The notes under the pieces: generated by a model
Database searches by the model: none
What the model was told of the DNA's origin: nothing
Seen by the model: the letters and a program-made list of their open reading frames with translations, nothing else
Program-made: the position numbers and the translations under genes
In this document: one piece after another, positions 26,827 through 46,853 of the stretch
Layout of the letters: each line of letters opens with the position of its first letter
How positions within the stretch are numbered: the stretch's first letter is position 1
NCBI RefSeq assembly: GCF_030161595.1
Contig: NZ_BSUM01000001.1
Location: 2,790,001 to 2,854,000 of the forward strand
Direction: 5' to 3'
Source of the DNA: Litorihabitans aurantiacus
GTDB lineage: Bacteria > Actinomycetota > Actinomycetes > Actinomycetales > Beutenbergiaceae
DNA length: 64,000 nt

Positions 26827-27555
26827 TCAGGGGGCGGGGTGGCGCAGCCCGAGGTCGTTGAAGAGGGCGGCGTTGAGGTCGAACGCGACCGCGGCCTCGG
26901 CCACGACGGCGCCCGTGCCCTCGCTCGTCAGCGGTGCGGCGTCCAGGCGAGCCCGGTAGGCGTCCTTGTACGGCTTGGGCTTGGGGATGTCGGCGAACGT
27001 GTAGAACGTCAGCTCCTCCGGAGTCATGCCGTAGTGGCGCTGCAGCATGCGCGCAACGATCTGGCCGCCGGAGAGGTCGCCCAGGTAGCGCGTGTAGTGG
27101 TGCGCGAGCAGGTGCTCGGGCCGCGCGATCGCGTCGAGGCGGGCCGTGTAGGCGAGCGTGGCGGGCACGAGCGTGCGCTCCTCGCGCCAGCCCGGACCGG
27201 CCAGGATCGCCAGGTCGGCCTCGAGGCTCGGCACCCGCAGCAGCTCCGGCAGCACGAAGGGAGCCGCCACGGCGTCGTCGCGGAGGCGTTCGCCGGCCGC
27301 CTCGAGCGCCGTGTAGATCGCGTGGTGCTGCCGCGTCAGGTCGATGTAGGCATCACGGCCGAGCGCGCCACCCATGAGGTCGCTCACGAAGGACCGCGTC
27401 TCGGCGTGCTCGTGCTGCGGGCGGGTGGCCTCGCGCAGCAGCACCGAGAGCGTCGGCGGGGCCGTGGCCTCGGGGGCGACGGCCGCCGACCCGACGGCGT
27501 CGGCGGCAGGGACGCCGGTGGCGGGCGGGGCGGCGGGCTCGAGCGTCTCGGTCAT
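26827..27555 (-). CDS. hmuO: Haem oxygenase
   Basis: 242 residues. After a ~35-residue Ala/Pro extension comes the haem oxygenase domain. The proximal haem-ligand His is in RPQHEHAETRSF. The distal helix Gly-rich motif is RYLGDLSGGQIVARML. Other family signs are IYTALEAAGERL and FYTFADIPKPKPYKDAYR. It opens haem to biliverdin, CO and Fe2+ in the cytoplasm. It lies downstream of the haem-transport genes and has its own promoter region with a DtxR-like box and two small palindromes. This supports iron-regulated release of iron from imported haem. Confidence 0.95.
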   Translation of the reverse strand: MTETLEPAAPPATGVPAADAVGSAAVAPEATAPPTLSVLLREATRPQHEHAETRSFVSDLMGGALGRDAYIDLTRQHHAIYTALEAAGERLRDDAVAAPFVLPELLRVPSLEADLAILAGPGWREERTLVPATLAYTARLDAIARPEHLLAHHYTRYLGDLSGGQIVARMLQRHYGMTPEELTFYTFADIPKPKPYKDAYRARLDAAPLTSEGTGAVVAEAAVAFDLNAALFNDLGLRHPAP

Positions 27556-27569
27556 GGTCTTCCTCGTTC

Positions 27570-27595
27570 TGACAACTTGTCACGACAGTCTGTCA
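27570..27595. promoter_or_regulatory. Two tandem 13-bp palindromes upstream of hmuO
   Basis: TGACAACTTGTCA (27570-27582) and CGACAGTCTGTCA (27583-27595) abut without a gap, 15 bp upstream of the hmuO start. Both fit YGACARYYTGTCA. They are distinct from the DtxR-like site further upstream and suggest a second regulator, possibly haem-responsive. Confidence 0.5.
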
Positions 27596-27607
27596 TGACC
27601 ATTCAGA

Positions 27608-27626
27608 TAAGGAAAGCCTTACCTGC
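27608..27626. promoter_or_regulatory. DtxR/IdeR-like iron box upstream of hmuO
   Basis: TAAGGAAAGCCTTACCTGC matches the consensus TWAGGTWAGSCTWACCTWA at 16 of 19 positions. It lies 53-71 bp before the hmuO start, where an iron-loaded DtxR/IdeR would block transcription. Confidence 0.65.
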
Positions 27627-27646
27627 GCGATTGCACCAGGGGTGTC

Positions 27647-28600
27647 TCAGGCCTCGGACGACGCCTTCCGCCGCCTGACCGCGACCACGGCCGCCGTCGT
27701 CGACCCGATCGCGGCCGCGGCCGTGGTCCCGGCGATGATCCACGGCGCGGCGGACGACGAGCCGCTCTCGTCATCCGCCGTCGCCGCGCCGTCCTCGGCC
27801 GCCGCCGCTGCGCTCGCGGGAGGCTCCTCCGCGGACGCCGACCCCTCGGCGCTCGCGTCCTCACCCTGATCGGCCGGCGCCTCCTCGGCCGGCGCCTCGG
27901 CCGGCGACACCTCGACGGCGGGCTCCTCGACCGGAGCGGCCCCCTCCGCCGTCGTGAACGAGATCGGCGTGAAGGTCTCGTTGTTGGCGTTGACGACGCC
28001 GTGCGCCCCGAACGTGATGACGCCGCAGGTCTCCACGCGGCAGTCGAGCTCGCGCGGGTTCGCGCCGGAGGCGTCGGTGACCTGCAGCACCGGACCGGGG
28101 ATCACGAGGTCGGTGGCCCACGAGCCGTCGAGCGCGACCTCCGAGCCGTTGGCCTCGGACGCGGTGGTGGACCCCGGGAAGGTGACGAACTTCTGGTAGC
28201 CGGAGTTCTCCGCCGCCTGCACGTCCGGCTGGTAGGCGTAGGTGACGCCGAAGCCGCCGCCCGCGCTGGGCTGCCACGCGCCGTCGGCGACCCACCCGAA
28301 CAGCACGTAGATGCCGCCGAAGCCGCCGTCGATCGACTGGAAGCCCGATCCGGTGAGGGTCAGCGTCGTCGGGCCGTCGGGCGAGGCCGTCGCCTCCCCC
28401 AGGGGCCCGACGGCGGAGACGCTCGCCCCGGTCGGGCCCGGCTGAGGAGCGGGGGCGGCGACCGCGGGGGCACCCGTGCCGGCCGCGGCTCCCAGCAGCA
28501 CGCCGGCCCCCGCGAGGGCGAGGGCGGCCCGACGCGGCGTCGATCGAGTGGTGCGGCTGCGCCGTCGAGCGGCGGCGGGTGCAGGGGCGACGGCGCTCAT
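27647..28600 (-). CDS. HtaA-associated surface protein with signal peptide and C-terminal anchor
   Basis: 317 residues. ATG 28600 overlaps the stop of hmuV (ATGA). A twin-basic signal peptide (RRRSRTTRSTPRRAALALAG) ends near AVAAPAP. The mature domain has TTLTLTGSGFQSIDGGFGGI, YVLFGWV, then paired Cys in ELDCRVETCGVITFGAHG and NANNETFTPISF. The same domain occurs in the protein at 44213-45702. An acidic Glu/Ala stalk is followed by a membrane helix (SAAPWIIAGTTAAAAIGS) and RRRK tail. No LPXTG is present, so it is membrane-anchored. It probably captures haem or haemoprotein at the cell wall. Confidence 0.82.
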   Translation of the reverse strand: MSAVAPAPAAARRRSRTTRSTPRRAALALAGAGVLLGAAAGTGAPAVAAPAPQPGPTGASVSAVGPLGEATASPDGPTTLTLTGSGFQSIDGGFGGIYVLFGWVADGAWQPSAGGGFGVTYAYQPDVQAAENSGYQKFVTFPGSTTASEANGSEVALDGSWATDLVIPGPVLQVTDASGANPRELDCRVETCGVITFGAHGVVNANNETFTPISFTTAEGAAPVEEPAVEVSPAEAPAEEAPADQGEDASAEGSASAEEPPASAAAAAEDGAATADDESGSSSAAPWIIAGTTAAAAIGSTTAAVVAVRRRKASSEA

Positions 28601-29487
28601 GGCGTGATCTCCTCGTCGACGAGCGGGTGCGGGGCAGGTTCGCGGGTGACCCGTGGGGTGCGCGGCTGCCGCAGCGGCAGCACGATCGGCCCCGGGTGGT
28701 CGGGGTGGTGCACGACCTCCACCGGGTGGCCGTAGACCTCGGTCAGCAGCGCGGACGTCAGCACGTCGTCCGGCGGACCCTCGGCGCGGACGCGCCCGCC
28801 GCTGAGCAGCACGACGCGGTCGGCGTAGGCCCCGGCGAGGCTGAGGTCGTGCAGGACCACCACGACGGCGGCGCCCCCGTCGACCAGGTGGCGCACCTGC
28901 GTCAGCAGCGCCTCCTGGTGGCGGATGTCGAGCGCGGCGGTCGGCTCGTCCAGCAGGAGCACGGGCGTGCGCTGCGCGAGCGCGCGGGCGAACGAGGTCC
29001 TGGCCTTCTCGCCGCCCGACAGCGAGGGGAAGCGGCGCGGCGCGAGGTGGGTGACGTCGGCCCGGGACATCGACTCGCCGACCACGGCGTCGTCGTCGTC
29101 CTCCGCCGCGGTGCCGCGCCAGGGTGCCCGGCCCATCGCGACCACCTCGGTGACCGTGAACGCGAAGCTCAGCTGGGACTCCTGGACCTGGACCGCGCGC
29201 ACGCGGGCCAGCTCGCGCACGGGCGTGCGGCGCAGCTCGACGCCGAGCACGGCCACGTCGCCGACCTGCGGCTCGAGGTCGCCGGCGAGCACGGACAGCA
29301 GCGTCGACTTGCCCGCGCCGTTGGGGCCGACCAGCGCGACGAGCTCCCCGGGGCGGACCTCGAGCCCGACGCCGTCGAGGATCGTGGACCCGCCGAGCAC
29401 GACACCGACACCGGACGCGACCATCAGGGGCGCCTCGGGCGACGCCGTGGCGCCCGTCGGGACCGGATCCTGGGGCGACGCCGTCAC
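28597..29487 (-). CDS. hmuV: Haem ABC transporter ATP-binding protein
   Basis: 296 residues from GTG 29487, which overlaps the stop of hmuU (GTGA). Walker A is GPNGAGKST, the signature FPSLSGGEKARTSF and Walker B TPVLLLDEPTAALD, with the switch region VVVLHDLSLAGAYADRV. The QVQESQLSFAFTVTEVVAMG segment is typical of HmuV/FepC-type ATPases. The C-terminus has a Pro-rich tail. It drives haem uptake with HmuU; the HmuT binding protein is encoded at 45.7-46.8 kb. Confidence 0.95.
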   Translation of the reverse strand: MTASPQDPVPTGATASPEAPLMVASGVGVVLGGSTILDGVGLEVRPGELVALVGPNGAGKSTLLSVLAGDLEPQVGDVAVLGVELRRTPVRELARVRAVQVQESQLSFAFTVTEVVAMGRAPWRGTAAEDDDDAVVGESMSRADVTHLAPRRFPSLSGGEKARTSFARALAQRTPVLLLDEPTAALDIRHQEALLTQVRHLVDGGAAVVVVLHDLSLAGAYADRVVLLSGGRVRAEGPPDDVLTSALLTEVYGHPVEVVHHPDHPGPIVLPLRQPRTPRVTREPAPHPLVDEEITP

Positions 29488-30562
29488 GACCAGCCCCCGC
29501 CCCGCGGCGCGTGCGGCGCAGCAGCCAGAAGAAGAACGGACCACCGATGATCGCCGTCAGCATGCCGATCGGCAGGTCGGCGTAGGGCACGACCGTGCGT
29601 GCCACGAGGTCGGCCGCCAGCAGCACGACGGCGCCGCCCAGGACCGCGGCGGGCACGAGCACGCGGTGCGCCGGCCCGACGACCATGCGGATGACGTGCG
29701 GCACCACGAGCCCCACGAACGCGATGATCCCGGCGAAGGCGACGGCCGCGCTGGTGGCGACGGCGACCAGCACGATCACGCCGATCCGCAGGCGCTCGAC
29801 GTCGAGCCCGACGTGCCGCGCGGAGCGCTCGCCGAGCGCGAGGAGGTCGAGCTGCCGCGCCACGAGCGCCGCGCCGACGATGCCGATCACGATCAGCGGT
29901 GCGGCGACGGCGACCTGCACCCAGCGCGTCCCGTTCAGCGAGCCGAGCTGCCAGAACACGATCTCCTCGCGCGCCTGGGTGTCCCCCAGGAAGGTCATGA
30001 ACGCGATGACGGCACCGGCGACGGCGTTGACCGCCACCCCGGTCAGCACCAGGGTGACCACCTCGGTGCGCCCGTTCTGCCGTGCGGTGGCGTAGGCGAG
30101 GATCGTCGCGAGCAGGCCCCCGAGGAACGCCGCGAGCGCGACGCCCCACTCGCCCATCGCCGTCCAGCCGAGCACGATCACGAGGCACGCGCCCGCGGCG
30201 GCGCCCGAGGAGACGCCGACGACGCCGGGCTCGGCCAGCGGGTTGCCGAAGACGCCCTGCATCAGCACGCCGCCGACGGCGAGGCCGGCCCCGACGAGCA
30301 CCGCGAGCGTCACGCGCGGGAACCGGACGGTCCACAGCGCGCTCTCGCCGTTGGGGTGCGTCACGGGCACACCGGTCTCGATGCCGACGCGGCGCAGGAC
30401 CGAGGAGATCACCTCGAGCGGCGGGATGCGCAGCTGGCCGACGCCGGCCGAGACGATCACGAGCACGACGAGCGCGACGGCGAGGCCGAAGAGCAGGAGG
30501 GCGATGCGGCGGGCGGGCACGCCGGTGGCGAGGTCGGACCGCCGACGGGCGAGGTGGAGCAC
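29484..30562 (-). CDS. hmuU: Haem ABC transporter permease (FecCD type), frameshift near the 3' end
   Basis: GTG 30562. FecCD/BtuC signatures are clear: LRIPPLEVISSVLRRVG, RFPRVTLAVLVGAGLAVGG, MQGVFGNPLAEPGVVGVSSG, AFVGLVVPHVIRMVVGPAHR and AIIGGPFFFWLLRRTRR. As read, the frame lacks a stop and runs on into the surface-protein gene. Adding one base near 29,515 gives the natural ending (GGGWS) and a stop at 29484 that overlaps the hmuV start. The protein then has 359 residues and about ten membrane helices. A TAGGCT -10 lies 7 nt before the GTG and a DtxR-like box directly upstream. Confidence 0.92.
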
Positions 30563-30569
30563 GAAGGGG

Positions 30570-30596
30570 AGCCTACATTAGGTAAGGCACCCCTCA
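30570..30596 (-). promoter_or_regulatory. Iron-regulated leaderless promoter of hmuU (-10 plus DtxR box)
   Basis: On the minus strand TAGGCT (30570-30575) ends 7 nt before the GTG. Immediately upstream, 30578-30596 reads TTAGGTAAGGCACCCCTCA, matching the DtxR/IdeR consensus at 15 of 19 positions. The box also lies ~70 bp upstream of the divergent HtaA gene and could control both. Confidence 0.65.
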
Positions 30597-30661
30597 TCGC
30601 GGTATAAGTAAGGCCTCCGTGCCCAAATTCGGGTACGCCCACCCCCTCGGAGGCCGTCCCC

Positions 30662-33600
30662 GTGTCCAGAGCACCATCCCTCGCTGCGCCTCGGCGCCGC
30701 ACCGTCGCGAGCGTCCTCGCCGGCGCCCTCGTGGCCGCCGTCGCCCTCGTGGGCGGCGCCTCACCCGCCACCGCCGTCCCCGCCGACGTCGCGGGCGCCA
30801 CGCTGTCCTGGGGCGTGAAGCAGTCCTTCCGCGACTACATCGCGAGCCCGATCGCCCGGGGCACGGCGACGACGTCGGGCGGCGTGAGCGGGACGGGTCC
30901 CTACACCTGGCCGGCCGGCGCGGGCACGACGGACAACGTCTCGGCCGTGGCCGACGCGCGCTTCTCCGGCGGCGTCCAGTTCTCCGGGCACGACGGGCAG
31001 CTCGACGTCCGCCTGACGAACCCGCGCGTGATCATCGAGGGCACGAGCGGCTCGCTGGTGCTCGACTCCTACTCCCGCGCGATGGACGGCACCATCTCCG
31101 AGCGCGCCGGCGTCACCTTCGCGACCCTCACCGTGCCCCAGCCCGTCAACGACGCCTCCACCGTGACGTTCTCCGGCGTCGGCGCCACGCTGACCGCCGA
31201 CGGCGCCGCCGCGTTCGCGGGCTTCTACCCGGCGGGGACGGCCCTCGACCCGCTGAACCTGACGCTGCCGTACACGGTCCCCGCCGCCGCGACGAGCACC
31301 GCGCTGGCCTCCTCGGCGAACCCGTCGACCGCCGGCGCGGAGGTCGTCCTCACCGCCACGGTGACGCCGGCCGCGGCCGGTCAGGTGACGTTCCGCGACG
31401 GCGCGACGACCCTCGGGACCTCCCCGGTCACCGACGGCACGGCGACCCTGGCCACGAGCGACCTCGCCGCGGGCGACCACTCCGTGACGGCCGAGTTCGT
31501 GCCCGCCGACGCCACCCACCTCGGTTCCACCTCCGCCGCGCTGACGCAGGTGGTCGAGGCCGCCGCGCCCGCCCCGGTGTTCGACCCGGCGATCGCGGTC
31601 TTCCTGGCCGACGGCGTCACGCCCTACACCGGCCAGCCCGTCTACGACGGCGACTCCCTCGTCGTGAAGGGCTCCGGCTTCGACCCCGCCGCCAACGTCG
31701 GCGGCCGCGGCGCACCCATCCCGAACACGCTGCCGCAGGGCAGCTACGTCGTCCTCGGCGCCTTCGCCGAGAGCTGGAAGCCCTCCGCGGGCGCCCCCAG
31801 CGCCAGCCGCAAGGTCGTCTCCCAGAAGTGGGCCCTGGCCGAGTCGGTCCTGACCCAGGTCCCCGCGCAGTACCAGAGCGCCATCCGCAACCAGTGGGTG
31901 GACATCTCCGCCGAGGGCGACTTCACCGCCACCCTCGCCGTCACCGCCCCCACCGCCACGCCCGCCGCCCCGACCGGGGCCACCTGGGGCGTCTACACCT
32001 ACGGCGCCGGCGGCGTCACCAACGCCGCGCAGGAGCTCGCCACCCCCGTCAACTACCAGGGCGAGCGGCCCGCCGCCCCGGTCTTCGACCCGGCGATCGC
32101 GGTCTTCCTGGCCGACGGCGTCACGCCCTACACCGGCCAGCCCGTCTACGACGGCGACTCCCTCGTGGTGAAGGGCTCCGGCTTCGATCCCGCCGCCAAC
32201 GTCGGCACCCGCCCGCCGCTCGCTGGCGTCCCGGCCGGCGTCTACGCCGTCCTCGGCAACTTCTCACCGTCCTGGAGGCCGTCGACGGCGGCGCCGTCCT
32301 CCCACCGTCGGGTCGCCGACCAGAAGTGGGCCGCCCCGGGTGAGCCCGCGGCACTGGCGGGCAACCCGCAGTACACCCCTGACGGCCGAGGGCACGTTCA
32401 CCGCGACGCTCGAGGCGAAGGCCCTGACGACCCTGGCGCCCGACGGCGTGTGGGGCGTCTACACCTACCCCGCCTCGGGCGCGACGAACGCGGCGCACGA
32501 GCTCGCCGTCGCCGTCGACCACCGCGGCGCGCGCCCGGTCGAGCCGCCGGTCGTCGAGCCGCCGGTCGCGAACCCCGTCATCACGGTCACGCCGAGCACC
32601 GACCTCGACCCCGCCGTCGACAACGTCCTGACCGTCTCGGGCACCGGCTACACCGGGCCCGGCGCCGCCGTCGGCGCCTACGTCCTGGTGGGCGAGACCT
32701 CGGTCTGGTCCGGGCAGGGCGCCCTCCCGAGCGACGGCTGGGTCGCGCAGATCCACGTCCCCGCCGCACGCTTCTCGGGTGGCGCCTTCACCGCCGAGAT
32801 CACTGTGCCCGCCGGCGCGCTGGAGGCCGGCAAGACCTACCAGGTCGCCACCTCCGCGGCCCACTGGTTCTCCGTCAGCGACCGCACCCTCGACGCCTTC
32901 GCGCCACTCACGGTCAAGGCGGCCGACACCGAGCCGCCGGTGGTCCTGCCCGAGCCCGAGCTCGTCGTGACGCCGTCGACCGATCTCGACCCACGCGGCG
33001 CGACGATCACGATCGAAGGCCGCAACTACCGCGACATCGCGCGCGACGACGCCGGTTTCTTCCTGTCCGTCGGTTACGTGACGCCGGGCTGGGAGCCGTC
33101 CGAGGGCGGCACCACGGCGCACCGCACCGCCCCCTCGCACTACACCTCGCGTGTGTCCGCCGCCGAGCCCGGCGAGCGCAAGGTCCAGTGGTCGGCGAAC
33201 GCCGACGGCACGGTGAACTTCACCCAGACCATCGAGATCGACCTCGCCACGCTCGAGGCGAACCTCGCCCAGGTCCGCGAGCGCGGCCGGGCGCTCGAGG
33301 GTGCCGAGCTCGCCGTCGTCACATACGGGACCGAGGCGGTCACGGGCCTGCAGCCCGAGAACGAGCTGGCGACGCCGTTCTCGTTCGCGCCGGTGCCGGT
33401 CGAGCCCGAGCCGGGCGGCCGACCCGCGATCACGGTCTCGCCGAGCACGGACCTGGATCCCGCCGTCGGGCACGTCCTGACGATCACCGGGACCGGCTTC
33501 ACGGGTGACGGCGCCGCCAACGGCGCCTACGTGCTGGTGGGTGAGACCTCGGTCTGGTCCGGGAACGGGCCGCTGCCCAGCTCCGGCTGGATCGCCCAGG

Positions 33601-35459
33601 CCTGGGTCCCGAAGGCCCTCATCACCGACGGCGCCTTCACCACCCGTCTGACCGTGCCCGCCGGCACCCTCGAGGCGGGCAAGAGCTACCACGTCGCCAC
33701 CTCCGCGGCCCACCAGCTCTCGATCAGCGACCGCACGATGGACGCCTTCGCGCCGGTCACGGTCAAGGTGGCGGACACCGAGCCCCCGGTGACCACGACG
33801 CCGGAGATCTCCCTCCCGGCGGCCACCGTGAAGCAGGGCGAGCCGTTCGCGTTCACCGGGACCGGGTTCCTCCCCGGGGAGCAGGTGCGCGGCGTTGTCA
33901 CCTCGGAGCCGGTCGTCCTCCCGACGCAGACCGCCGACGAGAGCGGCGCGGTCGCCTTCGCGTGGACGGTCCCGGCCGACTTCCCCACGGGTACGCACAC
34001 GATCACGATGACGTCGGACTCCGCCGAGGTCGCCCGGACCTTCACGGTCGAGGCCGCCGCGGTCGACCCGGGTGAGACCCCGGTCGTGACGCCGCCCGTC
34101 ACGCCGCCCGGCGCCCAGTGCCAGGCGATCACGGCCGGGTCGGTCACCTGGGGCGTGAAGGAGTCCTTCCGCAGCTACGTCGCCGGACCCATCGCGAGAG
34201 GTTCCGTCACCACCAGCGCCGGCGCGACCGCGAGCGGTTCCGCCTACACGTGGGCCGGTGCGACGGGCACCTACTCCCCCGACGCCCGCGCGGGTGAGGC
34301 GGCGACGACCGGCACCGTGAGCTTCGACGGCCACGGCGGCCAGCTCGCCCTGCGCCTGAGCGACCCGCGCGTGCAGATCACCTCCCCCACGGAGGCGATC
34401 CTCCTCGTGGACGTCTCGAGCAAGGCGCTCACCTCCGGCACCGTGACCGAGACCGACGCGGTCCCGTTCGCGACGCTGGACATCGCGGGAGCCTCCGTCA
34501 CCCCGGGTGCGATCAGCGTGAGCGGCGCGGCCGCGACGCTGACCGAGGCCGGCGCGGAGAACTTCGCCGGCTTCTACCCGGCCGGCACGGCGCTCGACCC
34601 GGTGTCGTTCCAGCTGTCGCTGGGTGCGAGCACCGACTGCGTGCCGCCGACCGTCGTCAACCCCGGCCTGATCGGTGGCGGCAACGGTGGCGGGACCGGC
34701 TCCGGTCCCGGTGCGGGCGACGGCGCGGGCGCCCCGGCCACCCCGGCCGGCACGGGTACCGGCGCGTCCGGCACGACCCCGCGCAACGGCGGTTCCGCGG
34801 CGCAGCAGTGCGTCGCCCAGGGCGTGGGTGGCGGCACCCTGAGCTGGGGCGTCAAGTCCAGCTTCCGCACCTACGTGACCGGCCCGATCGCCGGCGGTTC
34901 GATCACGACGTCGGGCGTGAGCCAGTCCGGCGGCGCGTTCGTGTGGGGCGGCGGCAGCGGCGCCTTCAACGAGGCCGACGCCAAGGGCCGGGTCTCCTAC
35001 TCCGGCACCGTCGCCTTCGCCGGTCACGGCGGGCAGCTCGACCTGAAGATCAGCAACCCGCGGGTCCAGGTCAACGGCTCTGGCTCGGCCGCCCTGATCG
35101 CCGACATCACGTCGAAGGGCCTCAACGCGCCCGACGTCGCGAAGAACGGCGTGACGATCGCGACCCTGGCGCTCCCGGCGTCGTCGACGAGCGGCGGCTC
35201 GATCGCCTGGAACGGCGCGTCGGCCACGCTGACGGCAGCGGGCGCGGAGGCGTTCGGCGGCTTCTACCAGGCGGGCACCGCGATGGACCCCGTGTCCTTC
35301 TCGTTCCCGCTGGGCGGCGACGTCGAGTGCACCTCCGCCACGGGCACCCTCGCGGACACCGGCGCCGACGCCGTCGGCACCGCGGGCCTCGCGGCTCTCG
35401 GCCTGCTGCTGGCCGGCATCGCGCTGGTCGCGGTGCGCCGCCGGAGCGCCACGGCCTGA
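30662..35459 (+). CDS. Giant triple-HtaA haem-binding surface protein with LAxTG sorting signal, frameshifted
   Basis: About 1,600 residues, GTG 30662 with CGGAGG upstream. The signal peptide ends near ATAVPADVA. HtaA domain 1 (~residues 42-215) begins LSWGVKQSFRDYIASPIARG. An Ig-like repeat follows (~220-300), then two near-identical modules (VFDPAIAVFLADG...), then modules starting PSTDLDP. HtaA 2 (~1150-1325, VTWGVKESFRSYVAGPIARG) and HtaA 3 (~1380-1560, LSWGVKSSFRTYVTGPIAGG) close the protein. The C-terminus has LADTG, a hydrophobic helix and RRRSATA, a class E sortase signal. One frameshift at ~32,378 needs one base fewer or two more. It should be cell-wall linked and bind haem for the adjacent transporter. 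Confidence 0.9.
31574..32208 (+). repeat. Near-identical 130-bp direct repeat inside the giant HtaA gene
   Basis: About 31574-31704 recurs at 32078-32208, offset exactly 504 bp (168 codons), with only about three base differences. It encodes the module DGVTPYTGQPVYDGDSLVVK. Such identity implies recent duplication or gene conversion. Confidence 0.85.
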
Positions 35460-40218: not shown

Positions 40219-41250
40219 TCAGGCCGCGGCGCCCTCGCCCCGGCCGCGGCGGGCGCGCCGCACCCCGATCACGACGGCGACCGCCACCACCAGCGCCACG
40301 AGCACCAGCGCCGACCACGGCACGACCACGATCGAGGCGCCCACGACCGCCGGATCCGCGACGCTGCCGTCGACGCCCGTCGTGGTGACCGTCAGGTCCA
40401 CGTCGACCGGTCCGAGGAGCCACGCGTCTCCGACGTCGAACGCCACCGGCACGGCGCTGCCCGGCATCACCTCGACGGGCTCGGCCGTGCGCGTCACGCT
40501 GCCGGTCGGCGAGGAGGCCACGAGCCCCGCGGCCACGACCGCCCGGACGTCGCCGGTGTTCGTCACCGTCGCCGTCACGGTGCCCGACGGCGTCCCCCAC
40601 GGCACGGGCGAGGGCGACAGGGAGGTGACGACGTCGCTCGCCGCCACCGTCAGCGTCGTCTCACCCGCCACGCGCACGTGGATGCGCGAGCCGAGGCGCC
40701 GGTCGAGCCGGACATCGCCGTCGGCCGCCTGGACGAACGACGTCACGATGCCGCCGGGGTGGTCGCCGGGTGCGGCGTCCGCGGGCACGGTCAGCGTGAA
40801 CGGCACCTCGACCGACTGCGCGCCCTCGAGCGTCAGGGTCGGCGCGGGCGAGGTGACCCAGGTGCCGAGGTCGGTGGACGGCTCGCCGTCGGGCAGCAGG
40901 TCGAGGTGGCCCGACGCCGTCGTGAACGCGTCCGCGGCGTAGACCTGCAGCTCGAGCGGTGTCGCGCCGAGGTTCGTGACCACGAGGGCGTCCTCGACGA
41001 CGTCACCCGGCGCCAGCTCGTAGGCGAAGTTCGGGCGGCCCGCGCCGAGGTCGTTGTCGGCGGGGCGCACGCTCCAGGTGAGGTCGCCGGTGGCGGGCGC
41101 AGCCGCCGCGTCGGGGCCCGACGGCGCAGCGAGCGCGAGCGGCGCCGTCGCCGACGCCAGGGTCACGACCGCGACGGCGAGCGCGCGCAGCGCCACCCGC
41201 ACGGGTGAAGCGCCGGGACGCGGGGCGCGGCGGGACGGGACGGCGGTCAT
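40219..41250 (-). CDS. DUF916-type WxL-interacting cell-wall protein
   Basis: 343 residues, ATG 41250 with GGAGG upstream. A signal peptide (LRALAVAVVTLASATAPLALA) leads to a mature domain beginning LTWSVRPADNDLGAGRPNFA. It continues with APGDVVEDALVVTNLGATPL, like the DUF916 (WxL protein peptidoglycan-binding) domain, and then a second Ig-like part. A C-terminal helix (WSALVLVALVVAVAVVIGV) and RRARR tail anchor it in the membrane. The gene just upstream encodes a protein ending in a WxL-like domain, its expected partner. This is the last gene of the hmuT-led cluster. Confidence 0.82.
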   Translation of the reverse strand: MTAVPSRRAPRPGASPVRVALRALAVAVVTLASATAPLALAAPSGPDAAAAPATGDLTWSVRPADNDLGAGRPNFAYELAPGDVVEDALVVTNLGATPLELQVYAADAFTTASGHLDLLPDGEPSTDLGTWVTSPAPTLTLEGAQSVEVPFTLTVPADAAPGDHPGGIVTSFVQAADGDVRLDRRLGSRIHVRVAGETTLTVAASDVVTSLSPSPVPWGTPSGTVTATVTNTGDVRAVVAAGLVASSPTGSVTRTAEPVEVMPGSAVPVAFDVGDAWLLGPVDVDLTVTTTGVDGSVADPAVVGASIVVVPWSALVLVALVVAVAVVIGVRRARRGRGEGAAA

Positions 41251-41262
41251 CGCGATCCTCCG

Positions 41263-41292
41263 GTGACGGGACGTGACGGGACGTAACGGGAC
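41263..41292. repeat. Three 10-bp tandem repeats upstream of the DUF916 gene
   Basis: GTGACGGGAC, GTGACGGGAC and GTAACGGGAC follow each other, 13 bp before the DUF916 start. A 10-bp period puts each unit on the same DNA face. Confidence 0.6.
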
Positions 41293-41299
41293 GGACGGA

Positions 41300-41337
41300 G
41301 CCCGGGCCGCGCCGTCGTGCGACGACGCGACCCGGGC
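41300..41337 (-). terminator. Imperfect hairpin after the HtaA-WxL gene
   Basis: GCCCGGG at 41300 pairs with CCCGGGC at 41331-41337, with further inner pairing (CGTCGT/ACGACG). It lies 13 bp past the stop and would attenuate transcription into the DUF916 gene. Confidence 0.5.
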
Positions 41338-41349
41338 ACCGGCGGTGGA

Positions 41350-42750
41350 TCAGCCCAGCGCGGTCAGCGTGAGCGTGGAGGTGTACGCGCCGGCTGCGGT
41401 GCCGGTCGGGGCCAGCAGCGTCAGCGCCGTCGCGACCTCCGCCTGGCCCGCACCCGTCGCCGAGGCGAGCGTGCGCTGCTCCGACAGGCCCGCACCGGAC
41501 CCGGCCGAGACAGCGGGGCCGGCCTGCAGCCCTGCCGCGGTTCCGGTCGCCGCGGGTGCCCAGCCGAGCGCCGAGGCGGAGAACGAGCTGGCGGCGGAGG
41601 CGAAGTCGCTCGCCCGGCCGCTGAGGGACCAGCCGGCGCCGTCGGTGCGCGTGTCGCTCACCGTGATCGCGTGCAGCGACCCGGTGGCCGAGAACCCGGC
41701 GTCGCTCGCGCTCGCGCGGCCGAGGCTGACGGCGGACGTGCCGTTGATCGTCCAGGAGAGCGCACCGGGCTCGGGCTCCGGCTCCGGGTCGGTGACGACG
41801 GGGACCTCGACCTCGATCGGCACCTCGCCGTCGCCCGGCTCCGGCTCCGGCTCCGGCTCGGGGGTCGTGGCGATCTCCCACGCGACGTCGATCGGCTTGG
41901 CGGGCTTCTTCGGGTCGGCCGCGCCGCCCGAGGAGTACCAGTAGGCGGCCTGGCCGGTCTTGCCGTTGAAGTCGACGAACGACTGCGGGAACGCGCCCCA
42001 CGCGCTGCCGGTGCGGACCTGGTTGACGCCCTCGCCCGACACCTCGACGCCGGCGTAGTCCGGCGTGACCGTGAGGCCCTGGGCCGTCACCTCGACGCCG
42101 CTGAGGTCGGCCAGCACGATCTCCTCGGGGGCCAGCGGCACCCACTGGGACATGTCCTCCATGGAGGTGCCGTAGCCCGAGGCGGTCCCGGTCAGCGTGC
42201 CCGTGCCGTCGGCGGCGACGGTGAGCTCGGGGTCGCTGACGCTCCAGTAGGTGAGGCCGCCGTAGAAGACGATCGTGAGGTCGCCCTCCCACGCGATCTG
42301 CGCGGTGCCGGCCTCGACGTCGACCTGCCCCGTGCCGGCGGCGAAGACGGCGCGGTTGGCGGTGGTACTGCCGGGCTGCGGCGTGACGTTGCCGCTCCCG
42401 GAAGGGTTCTGGCACTTGGTCGCCCACGTCGGCGCGACGTACCCGGCCGGCGAGTTCTTCTCGATCGAGACGTTGCCCTCGGAGGGCTTGTAGAAACCGT
42501 CCGCCTCGGTCCACAGGCGGGAGGAGCCCGTGTCGCCGGCCAGGCCGGCCGTGAGGAAGTTGCAGCCGCCGAAGTAGGCGCCGCCGCCGGACTCGTCGTT
42601 GAGGGCCCAGGTGAGGCTGACGCCGTCGACGGACGACGGTGCCGCGGAGGCCGGCGCGGCGAGGGCGAGCGCGGAGCCGGACGCGAGCGCCGCCGTCGCG
42701 ACACCGGCACCGATCCGGCGCAGCACCGGCAAGGCGTGGAGGGATCTCAT
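41350..42750 (-). CDS. HtaA-type haem-binding surface protein with C-terminal WxL domain
   Basis: 466 residues, ATG 42750 with AAGGAG upstream. The signal peptide ends LAAPASAAP. The HtaA-like domain (~residues 42-310) has SLTWALNDESGGGAYFGGCN, DLTIVFYGGLTYWSVSDPEL, SGYGTSMEDMSQWVPLAPEE and SFVDFNGKTGQAAYWYSSGG. An acidic Pro-Glu linker (EPEPEPEPGDGEV) follows. The last ~135 residues resemble a WxL domain: ITVSDTRTDGAGWSLSGRAS carrying W-S-L, and a final GAYTSTLTLTAL. WxL domains bind peptidoglycan non-covalently, so haem binding would be displayed on the wall. Binding of haem itself is inferred from HtaA. Confidence 0.85.
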   Translation of the reverse strand: MRSLHALPVLRRIGAGVATAALASGSALALAAPASAAPSSVDGVSLTWALNDESGGGAYFGGCNFLTAGLAGDTGSSRLWTEADGFYKPSEGNVSIEKNSPAGYVAPTWATKCQNPSGSGNVTPQPGSTTANRAVFAAGTGQVDVEAGTAQIAWEGDLTIVFYGGLTYWSVSDPELTVAADGTGTLTGTASGYGTSMEDMSQWVPLAPEEIVLADLSGVEVTAQGLTVTPDYAGVEVSGEGVNQVRTGSAWGAFPQSFVDFNGKTGQAAYWYSSGGAADPKKPAKPIDVAWEIATTPEPEPEPEPGDGEVPIEVEVPVVTDPEPEPEPGALSWTINGTSAVSLGRASASDAGFSATGSLHAITVSDTRTDGAGWSLSGRASDFASAASSFSASALGWAPAATGTAAGLQAGPAVSAGSGAGLSEQRTLASATGAGQAEVATALTLLAPTGTAAGAYTSTLTLTALG

Positions 42751-42824
42751 CGGGTGGTTCTCCTTCGTGGTGTGGTGGCGCCCCGGACGGGACGCCGCTG
42801 GGTGGACGAGCGCGGGGCGGGTGG

Positions 42825-44216
42825 TCAGGTGGCGCGGGACCACGGGAGGACGAACCACCCGCGCGGGAAGCCGACGACGGCGAGCGAGCCGAGGCCGAAC
42901 ACCCCGGTGAGCGCGAGCGCCAGCCGCTCCGCCGGGTCGACGCCGGCGGGCGCACCGCCCGGGATGAGGGCGCGGTCGGGCAGCGCAGTCTCGGCCGGGA
43001 GCACCTGCGGCAGCGCGAGCGGCACGCCGTCGGCCGCCGCGACCACGGGGGTGGGCGCCACGGGCCCCGCCGGCGCCGCGCGGCCGCGGTTCGCGCCGTT
43101 CGCGGTGCCCGACGGCGACGACCCACCGCCGGCGGTACCCGCGCCGTCGCCGTCCGCGCCGATGCCGGCTCCCGCGCCGCCGCCCGGCCCGGTCAGCGAC
43201 GGCAACCCGCCGCCGGCCCCGCCGTCGGGCCGCACCGCGCCGGACGAACCCTCGCCGCTGTCGACCGGGTCGGCGGCGTCGTAGCTGACGTAGAGCGTGG
43301 TGGCGGGCTTCGCCGGATCGCGCAGACCGCCGGAGGAGTACCAGTAGGCCAGCTGCCCCGTCTGGGCCTGGAAGTCGACGAAGCTCTGCGGGAACGACCC
43401 GGCGCTGGGCGTGCCGGTGACCTGCGGCGTCGCGCCCGCGGGGAGGGTGACACCCACGCCGAGGTAGCGCGGCAGCGTCGAGAAGCCGGTCCGCGTGGCG
43501 GGGACGTCGGCGAGGTCGGCAAGCACGACGCGCGTGGCGGGCAGCGCCGTCCACCGGCTCATGTCCTCCATGTCGGTGCCGTACCCGCCGGCGGTCGCGC
43601 TGAGGGTGCCGCGGCCGCCCGAGATCTCCAGCACCGGGTCGGAGAACCACCAGTAGGTCAGGCCGCCGTAGAACACGACCGTCACGCCGCCGTCCCACTC
43701 GATGCGCACGTCGCCGCTGTCGGGATCGACGGTGCCGGTGCCGCCGTCGATCACGGCCTCGATGCCCGTACCGACGAACGAGCTGGAGCTGACGGGGCTG
43801 CCGGTCGGGTCGAGGCAGCGGTCGGCGAACGGGACGGCGCGGCGCTGCGTCAGGCCGCCGTCGGTCGCGTACGGCTTCTCGATGGTGACGGCGCCGTCCG
43901 TGGTCGCGTAGAAGCCGTCGGCCTCGCTCCACACCCGGCCGCCGCCCGTGTCCCCCACCTCGCCGGCGGACAGGAAGTTGCAGCCGCCGAAGAAGGCCCC
44001 GGAACCGGCCTCGACGTTCAGACCCCAGCGCAGCTGGGCGTCCGTGATCGTCAGGGCCTCGGGGGGCGTCCCGGTGGCGGGGATCTCGACCTGGAGGCGG
44101 ACGTCGGCGGCGGCCGGGGTCGCGAGCGCACCGATCGTCAGCGCGGCGGCGGCGGTCGCGGTCAGAAGGCCGGCGACGGCGGCGGCCCCGCGGGTCCGGT
44201 CCGGTCGACGGCTCAC
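42825..44216 (-). CDS. HtaA-type haem-binding surface protein, membrane anchored
   Basis: 463 residues. GTG 44216 overlaps the upstream stop (GTGA). The signal peptide (LLTATAAAALTIGALATPAAA) is followed by an HtaA-like domain paralogous to the next gene: LRWGLNVEAGSGAFFGGCNF, VTVVFYGGLTYWWFSDPVLE, GYGTDMEDMSRWTALPATRV and SFVDFQAQTGQLAYWYSSGG. A Gly/Pro/Ser-rich stalk and a C-terminal helix (LALALTGVFGLGSLAVVGFP) with a short basic end anchor it. Unlike its neighbour it has no WxL domain. It likely relays haem towards HmuT. Confidence 0.85.
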   Translation of the reverse strand: MSRRPDRTRGAAAVAGLLTATAAAALTIGALATPAAADVRLQVEIPATGTPPEALTITDAQLRWGLNVEAGSGAFFGGCNFLSAGEVGDTGGGRVWSEADGFYATTDGAVTIEKPYATDGGLTQRRAVPFADRCLDPTGSPVSSSSFVGTGIEAVIDGGTGTVDPDSGDVRIEWDGGVTVVFYGGLTYWWFSDPVLEISGGRGTLSATAGGYGTDMEDMSRWTALPATRVVLADLADVPATRTGFSTLPRYLGVGVTLPAGATPQVTGTPSAGSFPQSFVDFQAQTGQLAYWYSSGGLRDPAKPATTLYVSYDAADPVDSGEGSSGAVRPDGGAGGGLPSLTGPGGGAGAGIGADGDGAGTAGGGSSPSGTANGANRGRAAPAGPVAPTPVVAAADGVPLALPQVLPAETALPDRALIPGGAPAGVDPAERLALALTGVFGLGSLAVVGFPRGWFVLPWSRAT

Positions 44217-45702
44217 GAGGTGCCCCCGGTCGTGACGGACCGGCGCACCCGCGGGAGGGTCGCCGTCGACGACGCGTCCTGATCGGCGGGTGCGGGCGGT
44301 GCGGGCGGCACGGGCGGCACCGCCGGCAGCGCCTCCAGCGTCTCGGTGGCCGGAGCCCGCACCGGCTCCCACGGTGCCGACCTCGTGGGCGGCTCCTGCT
44401 CGGCGGGCGCGCCGGGCTCGTCGGAGGACGCGGCCGCGGCCACCGCCGCGGCGCGGGCCGCCCGCCGCCGTCGCCGTCGGCGGACCAGGGCGGTGACGCC
44501 CGAGACGATCAGGAGCGCGAGCAGCAGGAGGCCCGCCCCGGCCGCCGCGAGGAACGGCCACCCCGGGCCGGCCTCGGCCGCGGCGGCCGCGTCCTGCGCC
44601 GCGGCGGCGGCCAGCACCGGGTCCGCCACGACCGTGAGCAGGACCTCGGGCGTCTCGCCCGAGGCTGCGCCGACGAGCGAGAGCGTGTGCGAGCCCGTGC
44701 GGATGTCGGCGGGGAGCGTGACGACGCCCGCGACCTCGCCGGCGGCACCGGCGACGAGCGGACCCGCCGCGGCGAGCCCGCCGCTGAGCGAGGCCACGAC
44801 CTGCTCCCCCGGCGTGAAGCCCTGCCCGGTGAACGCCACGACGCGGCCGACGACGACGGTGCGAGCCTCCACGCCGAGCGTCGCCGGGGCGCGGGGCGCC
44901 GCTTCCTCGTCGGAGCCCTCCGCCGCCTCGCCCTCGCCCGCCGCGGCGTCGCCCTCGGCCTCGGCGGCTCCGGCGTCGGTCGCACCCGCGGGGGCGGCTC
45001 CGTCGTCGGACGATCCCTGCTCGCTGCCGGCCGAGGTGCCGGCCGCGGGCCCGCCCGAGCTCGCACCGGCGTCGGGCGCGCCCGCCCCGCCGGTGGCCGC
45101 GAACGTCACCGGCGTGAACGTCTCGTTGGTCGCGTTCTTGACGCCGTGCGCGCCGATGGTGATGACGCCGCAGGTGACGGCGCGGCAGTCGACCTCGGTG
45201 GGCGCGTTCGACCGGTCGAGCCCGGTGAAGACCGGACCGGGGACCACGAGCGAGGCCGACCAGGTGCCGTCGGCGGCGAGCGTGCCGTGGGCCTCCCCGC
45301 CGTCGAGCTGCCGGGGAACGCGATGAAGCGGCTGTACCCGGCGTTCTGGCCGGACTCGGCGTCGGGCACGTAGACGTAGCTCTGCCCGGTGGCGCCGCCG
45401 TTGCTCGGGGCCCAGCCGCCCCCGGTCGGGTCGTCGACCCAGCCGAACAGCACGTAGATGCCGCCGAAGCCGCCCTGGACGGACTGGAAGCCGGAACCGC
45501 TCAGGCGCAGCGTGGTCGCGCCGTCGACCGCGGCGGTGGCCGTGCCCAGGTCGCTCGTGACCGCGACCCGGCCGACGGCGGCGGCGGGCTGCGCCGTCGT
45601 GGCCGTGAGCGCGCCCGCGCCGAGGACGGCGAGGCCGAGCGCGGCAGCGAGCGCACGGCCGATGCGGCTGGACCTCGCCACGGGGCGGCGGCGCGCGCTC
45701 AC
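44213..45702 (-). CDS. HtaA-associated surface protein (paralogue of 27647-28600), frameshifted
   Basis: GTG 45702 overlaps the hmuT stop (GTGA). The signal peptide ends TTAQPAAAVG. The domain shared with the protein at 27.6 kb is clear: TTLRLSGSGFQSVQGGFGGI, YVLFGWVDDP, then in the next frame EVDCRAVTCGVITIGAHGVK and NATNETFTPVTF. The slip is near 45,303 and one added base gives ~496 residues. After an acidic linker comes a second Ig-like domain (VVGRVVAFTGQGFTPGEQVV). A membrane helix (FLAAAGAGLLLLALLIVSGV), an RRRRRR stop and a ~90-residue cytoplasmic tail follow. The long tail is unusual for a pure anchor. Confidence 0.82.
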
Positions 45703-46814
45703 GAGGCGACCTGCGCGGCGTCGGGCGCGTAGAGGGCGACGGCGAGGGCCTCGAGCACCTCGGCGCTCGCCGGGCCGAAGCTGAGGATCTCCGTGTCGGC
45801 CATGTCGACGAAGCGGCGGTTCTCCCCGGCCGGCGTGCTCGCGAGGGCGGGGACCGCCTCGAGGAGGCCGTCGACGCCGCCGGTCGACTCGAGCCCCTTC
45901 GTCATGAGCAGCACGACCTCGGGCTGCATCGCGATGAGGCCCTCGTCGGTGACGGGCTGCATGCCGGTCCAGCCGATCTCGGTGGCGACGTCGACGCCGC
46001 CCAGGCCCGTGATCAGGGAGTCGGTGCCCGAGCCCTGGCCGAACAGGTAGTAGATCCCGGAACCGCCGCGCACGTAGAGGAACACGGTGCGCAGGCCCTC
46101 GCCGGCCGGCGGAGCGATCTCGGCGATCTCGGCGCGCGCCGTGTCGATCCGCTCCTGCGTGCGCTCGGCGAGCGCCTCGCCCTCGTCGGGGAGCCCGACG
46201 GCGGCCGCCACCTGGCGGATGAGGTCGTCGACCGTCTCGAGGCTGCGCTCGGCGTCGACCACGACGACGGGGATCCCTGCCTCGCGCATCTGCAGCACGA
46301 CGTCCCACGGTCCGAGCGAGGTGTCGGTGATGATCAGCGTCGGGGCCAGCTCGAGGATCGCCTCGGCGTTGAGCTCGTGCCCGCTCGGGGTGACGAGCGG
46401 GAGGTGGCTGACCTCGGGGAAGGCCGAGGAGGTGTCGCGGCCGACGAGGTTCTCGCCCAGGCCCAGCTCGTAGACCGTGCGGGCGGTGGAGCCGTACAGG
46501 TCGAGCGCGAGGATGCGGCTCGCGTCGTGCACGGTGACCGAGGTGCCCTGCGCGTCGGTGACGGTCAGCGGCAGCTCGGGCTCCGGGTTCTCGGCGATCG
46601 GGTCGACCGAGGCGGACGCGAGGCGAGCGGTGCTGGGGCCGACGTAGGAGTGCGGGTCCGCGACCGGCTGGACGTCGGCGAGGGTCGGGCCGCCGGGGGC
46701 CGCCGGGTCGTCACCTCCCTCGGGAGCTCCGCCGCCGCACGCCACGAGCAGGGCGAGGACGGGTACCAGGGCGAGCATCCGCGCGCGCCCGGACCACGAA
46801 GAACCGTTCGACAT
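45699..46814 (-). CDS. hmuT: Haem ABC transporter substrate-binding lipoprotein
   Basis: 371 residues, ATG 46814. The lipobox LALLVAC puts the acylated Cys near residue 26. Periplasmic-binding-protein (class III) features are ASRILALDLYGSTARTVYEL, LVGRDTSSAFPEVSHLPLVT, TLIITDTSLGPWDVVLQMRE and IPVVVVDAERSLETVDDLI. The YLFGQGSGTDSLITGLGGVD segment is typical of HmuT/ChtB. It should hand haem to HmuU/HmuV encoded 15 kb away. It is the first gene of a four- to five-gene operon with GTGA overlaps. Two DtxR-like boxes sit directly upstream. Confidence 0.93.
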   Translation of the reverse strand: MSNGSSWSGRARMLALVPVLALLVACGGGAPEGGDDPAAPGGPTLADVQPVADPHSYVGPSTARLASASVDPIAENPEPELPLTVTDAQGTSVTVHDASRILALDLYGSTARTVYELGLGENLVGRDTSSAFPEVSHLPLVTPSGHELNAEAILELAPTLIITDTSLGPWDVVLQMREAGIPVVVVDAERSLETVDDLIRQVAAAVGLPDEGEALAERTQERIDTARAEIAEIAPPAGEGLRTVFLYVRGGSGIYYLFGQGSGTDSLITGLGGVDVATEIGWTGMQPVTDEGLIAMQPEVVLLMTKGLESTGGVDGLLEAVPALASTPAGENRRFVDMADTEILSFGPASAEVLEALAVALYAPDAAQVAS

Positions 46815-46853
46815 GCAGGTGAGCCTACCCTCACCCAGGCAAGCCTTACCTGT
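46815..46853 (-). promoter_or_regulatory. Leaderless hmuT promoter with two tandem DtxR/IdeR-like boxes
   Basis: 46815-46833 (GCAGGTGAGCCTACCCTCA) and 46835-46853 (CCAGGCAAGCCTTACCTGT) each match the DtxR consensus at 14 of 19 positions. On the minus strand TAGGCT (46822-46827) is a -10 that ends 7 nt before the ATG, so the first box covers the -10 itself. Confidence 0.65.

Follow-up and report, generated by a model that had tools for sequence, protein, structure and literature searches.

Organization of the locus

We analysed a window of 64,000 nucleotides from the actinobacterium Litorihabitans aurantiacus (contig NZ_BSUM01000001.1, positions 2,790,001 to 2,854,000), the minus strand of which carries a five-gene cluster at 40219-46814. 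In order, the genes encode an ATP-binding cassette (ABC) transporter substrate-binding protein, an unknown secreted-type protein, an HtaA-like protein, a fusion of an HtaA-like domain with a WxL-like domain, and a DUF916 (WxLIP) protein. The last two genes are our main subject. A preliminary description, made from the letters of the window, had proposed an HtaA-like domain and a WxL-like tail in one gene with a DUF916 gene next to it; this architecture is real and was placed at the correct coordinates. The two genes contain the following features (pLDDT, predicted local distance difference test).

41350..42750, minus strand: HtaA-like/WxL-like fusion gene, ATG at 42750, stop at 41350, 466 amino acids
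41866..42630, minus strand: HtaA/CR-fold domain, fusion residues 41-295
41779..41850, minus strand: Pro/Glu-rich low-confidence linker, fusion residues 301-324 (model residues 264-287), pLDDT <50
41353..41766, minus strand: WxL-like C-terminal domain, fusion residues 329-466, with the first motif D366/R368/W374, LGWxP and a C-terminal strand without the second Trp
40219..41250, minus strand: DUF916/WxLIP partner gene, 343 amino acids, with a signal peptide (by eye), two Ig-like domains, a transmembrane helix and a basic tail

Both genes are intact in the window; 74 bases precede the fusion gene and 99 the DUF916 gene, with AGGAG and GGAGG upstream as ribosome-binding-like sequences. The fusion protein begins with a signal peptide (by eye). 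Its best later 19-residue hydropathy mean is only 1.16, with no strongly hydrophobic segment, and an NCBIfam scan of the protein found no match to LPXTG-type anchor models.

Single-sequence scans with Pfam and NCBIfam missed both the WxL-like and the HtaA-like domain of the fusion, and family profiles were used instead. The underlying alignments comprised 20 of 23 WxL-like domains (A1), the window protein plus 29 of 36 fusions (A3), the window protein plus 31 of 34 partners (A4) and 52 of 87 HtaA-like domains (A5); the rows of two further sets, A6 (12) and A7 (17), were chosen manually.

A WxL-like C-terminal domain

Comparison by hhalign of family A1 with 12 actinobacterial rows, nine of them over the PF13731 (WxL) cut-off, gave a probability of 99 and an E value of 2.5e-18 across 135 columns. 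PF13731 itself exceeds its cut-off in eight genomes among those found by A1, several times at the same places (among them G409 C90, G434 C48, G232 C133 and G240 C11). The first WxL motif of the window protein is W-S-L, and D366 and R368 sit 8 and 6 residues ahead of W374, the spacing described for the Asp and Arg that precede the first-motif Trp of Firmicutes WxL domains (PMC9772566, in excerpt). These positions are well kept across 30 fused rows (D366 in 30, R368 in 29, W374 in 25 with Phe in the other 5), where the third motif residue is Leu in 8 and Val, Ile or Met in 22. The 20 A1 rows agree: Asp and Arg are present in 20/20, the first-motif Trp in 19/20 and Leu as third residue in 12. This family also retains LGWxP and the terminal strand.

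The W-S-L motif and the terminal strand had been noticed in the preliminary description, and both are there. What the strand lacks is the second WxL Trp, sought at positions 456-465 and found in 0/20 A1 rows and 0/30 A3 rows. Because the twelve A6 rows also lack it in their C-terminal strand, its loss suggests a trend of the phylum and not an oddity of the window protein.

Searches of solved-structure sequences gave nothing at E ≤10 with the A6 WxL profile and only three unrelated names, at E ≥0.16, with the A1 profile. In its predicted structure the WxL-like domain is similar to pilin domains, with Z 8.5 for a CFA/I tip adhesin chain, 8.0 for CfaE and 7.0 for FimG; glycoside hydrolase (GH) 123 domains match it about as well (Z 8.0), and values near 8 are common with this tool. 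Among the 50 structure matches listed for the fusion model no chain is labelled WxL, and we claim no direct fold match to a solved WxL domain. Judged from profile comparison, first motif and gene partnership, the tail is homologous to WxL domains. 'WxL-like' is the right name for it, since the second motif is missing and peptidoglycan binding is a putative trait here.

The DUF916 partner

The partner scores 33.1 bits (E 6.5e-8) against PF06030 (Pfam name WxLIP_PGBD), whose cut-off is 27.3, and 31 of the 32 partner rows match this profile at E ≤0.01. The partner family profile also finds the solved EfmWxLIP1 by sequence (E 1.6e-4); as a single query against solved-structure sequences, the window DUF916 protein returned no WxLIP. 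In its AlphaFold2 model (pLDDT 90.8) a pair of beta-sandwich domains is followed by a C-terminal helix. This predicted model is matched best by solved Enterococcus faecium WxLIP entries, with Z 19.3 and a root-mean-square deviation (rmsd) of 4.6 over 239 aligned residues for 9i25_C (target 251); the 9i25 entry is titled as bound to a long WxL. The next unrelated row has Z 12.3. The two predicted Ig-like domains are arranged as in solved WxLIP, and the match spans both. Pfam scans of the window protein and of the partner rows list no DUF3324 match in the second domain, which falls inside the structure-aligned range. The C-terminal helix, seen in the model as well, has a 19-residue hydropathy mean of 2.87 and is followed by an RRARRGR tail. 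These results bear out the earlier proposal of a DUF916-type partner with a membrane anchor.

Partnership and spread in Actinomycetota

A search of 396 Actinomycetota genomes with the A1 profile found at least 48 places in at least 29 genomes, both lower bounds because at most 10 candidates per genome were scored. In the same genomes PF06030 places were taken at E ≤0.001, giving 33 carriers, 25 of them over the Pfam cut-off. WxL-like domains (at least 29 carriers) and PF06030 occur together in 23 genomes (hypergeometric 3e-24). Of the WxL-like places listed, 37/48 have a PF06030 match no more than 5 kb away, and for 33/48 the distance is at most 1 kb. On these co-occurrence and proximity counts, a coincidental adjacency of the two was rejected.

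Relatives' loci tell the same story at closer range. In the 20 loci fetched for WxL-like matches, from which the WxL-like place of G023 was left out, a DUF916-type match is always present, and it stands within 1 kb of the domain in 18 (the exceptions are L078 and L081). A further 58 loci came from two HtaA-like peptide patterns and are a sample of HtaA-like proteins; four of them (L151, L153, L159 and L179) come from the contigs of G005, G010, G044 and G015, and there the 20-locus and 58-locus counts overlap. The fusion is encoded in 36 of the 58, the 22 without it being partly on short contigs. Chance does not explain the pairing, since in 33 of these 36 fusions a DUF916-type gene follows no more than 900 bases downstream. 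Two of the remaining three, L166 and L173, lie on contigs that end 0.4 and 0.1 kb past the domain. Carriers of the fusion include Cellulomonas, Arthrobacter, Pseudoclavibacter, Occultella, Streptomyces, Brachybacterium, Microbacterium and Bifidobacteriaceae. A tblastn search of plasmids found nothing.

The WxL-like tail is attached to various cargo. The ten cargo proteins scanned, to which L079, L085 and L087 did not contribute, comprise an alkaline phosphatase, a purple acid phosphatase-type protein, an S15 peptidase, two GH18 proteins (one below cut-off), a GH53 protein, an esterase, a canonical HtaA protein and two without recognised cargo, one of which is a 205-residue protein resembling small WxL. 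Another WxL-like/DUF916 pair of the window's own genome carries an alkaline phosphatase (L068; G000 contig C1 865737-866177). With cargo types this diverse, the pair looks, by its distribution, like a general display module. The preliminary description had the pair recruited to hold a haem receptor. An HtaA-type protein held on the surface is the part of this that survives; recruitment for haem alone was rejected in view of the cargo found in Actinomycetota.

Short, near-bare WxL-like proteins of about 176-214 residues also occur (L078 6355-6969, L095, L102 and L104, two in a row in the last two loci), and they resemble the small WxL proteins of Firmicutes. In another genus, the WxL-like tail encoded by L077 9581-11257 comes after a canonical HtaA domain that scores 59.6 bits and has its SFxxY motif in the usual form (the L215 row). 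This suggests that WxL-like tails and CR domains were combined on more than one occasion, or that the tail was swapped.

The HtaA-like domain

In the fusion model (pLDDT 89.0) the HtaA-like domain matches Corynebacterium diphtheriae HbpA best (Z 15.7, 175 residues, 19% identity), followed by the C-terminal domain of Corynebacterium glutamicum HtaA (Z 13.8), and the Foldseek probability for a CR fold match is 1.00. On this predicted structure the domain has the CR beta-sandwich fold. By sequence the assignment is borderline: the fusion profile finds only C. glutamicum HtaA among solved-structure sequences (E 0.057), HtaA-like and canonical HtaA domains align with probability 90 and E 1.7e-6 over 88 columns, and PF04213 (HtaA) matches 25 of 52 subfamily members at E ≤1 (best 4.1e-8).

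Canonical HtaA domains (17 rows) keep the SFxxY and GH motifs, with Ser11, Tyr15 and His66 invariant, and in C. diphtheriae CR domains the axial Tyr, a Ser and a Tyr are described as universally conserved, with a helper His or Tyr (PMC12494546, in excerpt). In the 52 HtaA-like rows the residues invariant in 52/52 are Glu53, Cys63, Cys113, Tyr163, Trp169, Pro255 and Trp271. The axial-Tyr and propionate-Ser positions correspond to Gly57 and Glu53 when counted by eye from a shared Trp, hhalign having no coverage there, and the invariant Tyr163 stands at the place of the canonical helper His. Residue 59, Tyr in the window protein, was considered as a conserved axial Tyr and rejected, being Tyr in 25 and Phe in 27 of the 52 rows (Tyr in 14/20 fused and 11/32 unfused). 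No axial Tyr is conserved in the subfamily, and direct haem binding by the domain is therefore putative, as is the earlier label 'haem receptor'.

Iron-box-like sites and operon context

The remaining features of the cluster are the following.

46837..46851, plus strand: DtxR/IdeR-like palindrome, differing at one position from AGGTWAGSCTWACCT, 22 bases ahead of the first gene
46817..46831, plus strand: second DtxR/IdeR-like palindrome, two mismatches, 20 bases start to start from the 46837 site
45699..46814, minus strand: ABC transporter substrate-binding protein (Peripla_BP_2), PF01497 119.3 bits
44213..45702, minus strand: secreted-type protein, family unknown, GTGA overlap with the upstream gene, one open reading frame in L072
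42825..44216, minus strand: paralogous HtaA-like protein with a C-terminal hydrophobic segment, HtaA 19.2 bits (cut-off 24), GTGA overlap with the preceding gene

Both GTGA overlaps, the first two junctions of the cluster, tie its first three genes. The two palindromes were recognised with a 15-position core, picked post hoc after viewing the stretch, of what we take to be the DtxR/IdeR consensus motif. With two mismatches allowed, this core has three sites in the window against 0.03 expected: two ahead of the operon and one, at 27610, 54 bases before a haem oxygenase gene. The 19-position DtxR consensus with three mismatches has no match in the window. Used unchanged on relatives, the core gave 79 sites in 920,043 bases, with at least one site in 43 of 67 loci (24 without) and pairs 20 bases apart in 11 of the 67. 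A site lies within 500 bases upstream of the HtaA-like domain in 15/36 fused loci, against 0 in each of 100 single-base shuffles.

A more complete operon is found in Occultella glacieicola (L072), which encodes in order a substrate-binding protein, a FecCD permease, an ATPase, an unknown protein, an HtaA-like protein, the fusion and a DUF916 protein. Overlaps link genes one to five, and the ATPase exceeds an NCBIfam haem-transporter cut-off (289.4 vs 261). Read from sequence, the iron-box-like sites and this relative's operon favour haem or iron acquisition.

The window also holds a second haem locus at 26827-35459. The haem oxygenase belongs to it (192.7 bits to PF01126), together with an ABC ATPase that scores 298.6 against the NCBIfam haem-transporter cut-off of 261. 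Canonical HtaA domains are encoded at 32340-35459, with a tail that matches an LAVTG model below cut-off. Stretches resembling the unknown secreted-type gene at 44213-45702 lie beside the haem oxygenase locus as well, at 27938-28420.

Discussion

We think it probable that the fusion is an iron-regulated protein for the acquisition of haem or haemoproteins, held on the cell surface by its WxL-like/WxLIP pair. The HtaA-like/WxL-like protein would be secreted without a recognised anchor of its own. Its WxL-like domain, presumably an incomplete beta-sandwich, would be captured by the DUF916 (WxLIP) protein encoded directly downstream, which would itself be fixed in the bacterium's own membrane through its C-terminal helix and basic tail. 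The complex would project the CR-fold domain into the wall, farther out than the substrate-binding protein and the membrane-anchored HtaA-like paralogue. Haem would move inward to a haem-type ABC transporter. Our proposal of a partner that clamps the tail and tethers it to the membrane draws on the fold matches, the absence of an anchor from the fusion, the helix and basic tail of the partner, and published AlphaFold2 models in which a WxLIP strand is placed into WxL (PMC10599100, in excerpt). The partner model resembles chaperone-usher chaperones and the tail model resembles pilins; these predicted resemblances fit donor-strand capture, but unrelated sandwiches score about equally. Streptomyces and Cellulomonas are mostly free-living. 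The bacterium's own membrane is favoured over that of a host because of the basic C-terminal tail and such mostly free-living carriers, and we infer that the helix lies there. Hassan and co-authors proposed that the WxLIP helix enters the host membrane (PMC10599100, in excerpt).

Several observations weigh against this reading. The preliminary description had suggested a check with two Pfam profiles; PF06030 came out positive, whereas PF13731 does not match the window fusion protein and matches only 3 of the 30 fused rows at E ≤0.1 (best 0.01), so that homology was seen by profile comparison. PF04213 gives the window HtaA-like domain 22.9 bits, under its cut-off of 24, and helix 1 of the CR-like subfamily has no conserved Tyr in the 52 rows. 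The partnership is incomplete: 11/48 WxL-like places listed have no PF06030 match within 5 kb, 14/46 PF06030 places have no WxL-like match, among the matches listed, within 5 kb, and the L148 fusion has no DUF916 partner. As for transport, permease and ATPase genes are absent from the window cluster, and neither its substrate-binding protein nor that of L072, nor the L072 permease, passes an NCBIfam equivalog cut-off. The unknown secreted-type gene has a frame change near 45300 in the window. In the sister genome (L069), the locus has no iron-box-like site and the fusion gene has one in-frame TAG in an otherwise conserved frame.

These points feed four other explanations. It is possible, though we give it clearly less weight, that the anchoring is as proposed and the HtaA-like domain is a CR-fold receptor for another ligand, such as a haemoprotein, another tetrapyrrole or a chelate, and not haem itself. 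Its best structural match, HbpA, is described as a haemoglobin receptor (PMC12494546, in excerpt), and the subfamily lacks a conserved axial Tyr, yet keeps seven other residues invariant in 52/52 rows. HtaA rows, however, come within 2 Z of HbpA, the invariant Tyr163 at the helper-His position or Tyr59 of the window protein could serve haem, and the transporter ATPase of L072 is of the haem type. The DUF916 protein might instead serve chiefly to chaperone the WxL-like domain during secretion, in the manner of FimC and CfaA with pilins (donor-strand complementation), with final anchoring to peptidoglycan through the WxL-like domain alone. Among the rows that span both domains of the DUF916 model, chaperone-usher chaperones come after WxLIP (CfaA, Z 11.7; CsuC, 11.5; rmsd 5-6), and the pilin-like tail and the published strand model would suit such a role. 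We consider it unlikely: in contrast to a soluble periplasmic chaperone, the partner carries both a membrane helix and a basic tail; transglutaminases also span both domains, with large rmsd; and the pilin likeness of the tail is shared about equally by the glycoside hydrolase 123 domains at commonly seen scores.

That the locus is a decaying remnant in its genus would account for the frame change, the lack of a permease and ATPase in the cluster, the TAG of the sister genome and the lack of a match in a third genome of the genus. We hold this to be improbable, as the window fusion and DUF916 genes are intact with ribosome-binding-like sequences, iron-box-like sites are present, and the ratio of nonsynonymous to synonymous substitution rates between window and sister genome is well under 1 (about 0.38 for the fusion and 0.42 for DUF916). 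Most improbable of all is an unrelated pilin-like or Ig-like sandwich lying beside DUF916 by coincidence. The failure of PF13731 on the window protein, the missing second Trp and the lack of a WxL label among the 50 structure matches listed speak for it; the E value of 2.5e-18 to PF13731 proteins, the matches at the same places and the partnership statistics speak the other way.

In its layout the locus recalls the WxL/WxLIP (cscABCD-type) clusters of Lactobacillales and Bacillales, in which a large surface protein with a C-terminal WxL domain is encoded beside a DUF916-Ig-transmembrane protein. It shares with them the first motif with Asp(-8) and Arg(-6) and a partner that superposes on E. 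faecium WxLIP in both Ig domains. Unlike them, the window pair lacks the second WxL Trp, a PF13731 score over cut-off, a small WxL gene (only one WxL-like domain was found in the window, and none other in the cluster) and a DUF3324 Pfam match, and its cargo is an HtaA-like domain in an iron-uptake-type operon, not a host-binding domain. Chaperone-usher pilin/chaperone pairs likewise join a pilin-like sandwich to a two-Ig partner, a likeness of fold only; the window partner is predicted to be membrane-anchored.

Compared with Corynebacterium HtaA, HtaB and ChtA, the window protein shares the predicted CR fold and, in a relative's operon, a haem-type transporter gene. Its subfamily differs from them in having no conserved axial Tyr, in an invariant Glu that replaces, by position, the pocket Ser, and in invariant Cys 63 and 113. 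C. diphtheriae HbpA is anchored differently. NEAT haem proteins also follow a surface relay logic, with an anchoring different from that of the window pair. Like the NEAT-domain haem proteins of Bacillota, the window protein would serve Gram-positive haem uptake by surface domains, though with another fold; and whereas corynebacterial CR proteins presumably use their own C-terminal helix, it carries a WxL-like domain (PMC12494546, in excerpt).

The preliminary description knew of no such combination, and the literature searched contains no report of WxL with HtaA or of DUF916 with HtaA. In the one paper found there that joins WxL domains, DUF916 and Actinobacteria, the WxL passages concern lactobacilli. 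For DUF916 in Actinomycetota, the nearest mention found places it next to Ang-2 metal proteins (PMC12537917, in excerpt). Published work describes WxL proteins as nearly exclusive to Lactobacillales and Bacillales and proposes WxLIP as a link between cell and host (PMC10599100, in excerpt).

In summary, a divergent WxL/WxLIP form is present in at least 29 of the 396 Actinomycetota genomes sampled, with nutrient-acquisition cargo, and in one branch its operon includes genes of haem-uptake type and has iron-box-like sites. Whether Actinomycetota thereby possess a general, largely undescribed, sortase-free display platform seems to us evenly poised; in it, a pilin-like WxL-like tail would be clamped in donor-strand fashion by a two-Ig WxLIP anchored in the bacterium's own membrane, for cargo that includes haem-type receptors, phosphatases, GH18 and GH53 hydrolases, peptidases and esterases. 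We also offer a rule of annotation for unnamed C-terminal domains that are encoded beside DUF916. If the proposal is true, actinobacteria gain a route for displaying haem proteins besides their own helices and sortase motifs, and the proposed role of the WxLIP membrane helix becomes testable outside host-associated Firmicutes. The pair appears to be a general, hitherto overlooked means by which actinobacteria keep proteins at the cell surface.

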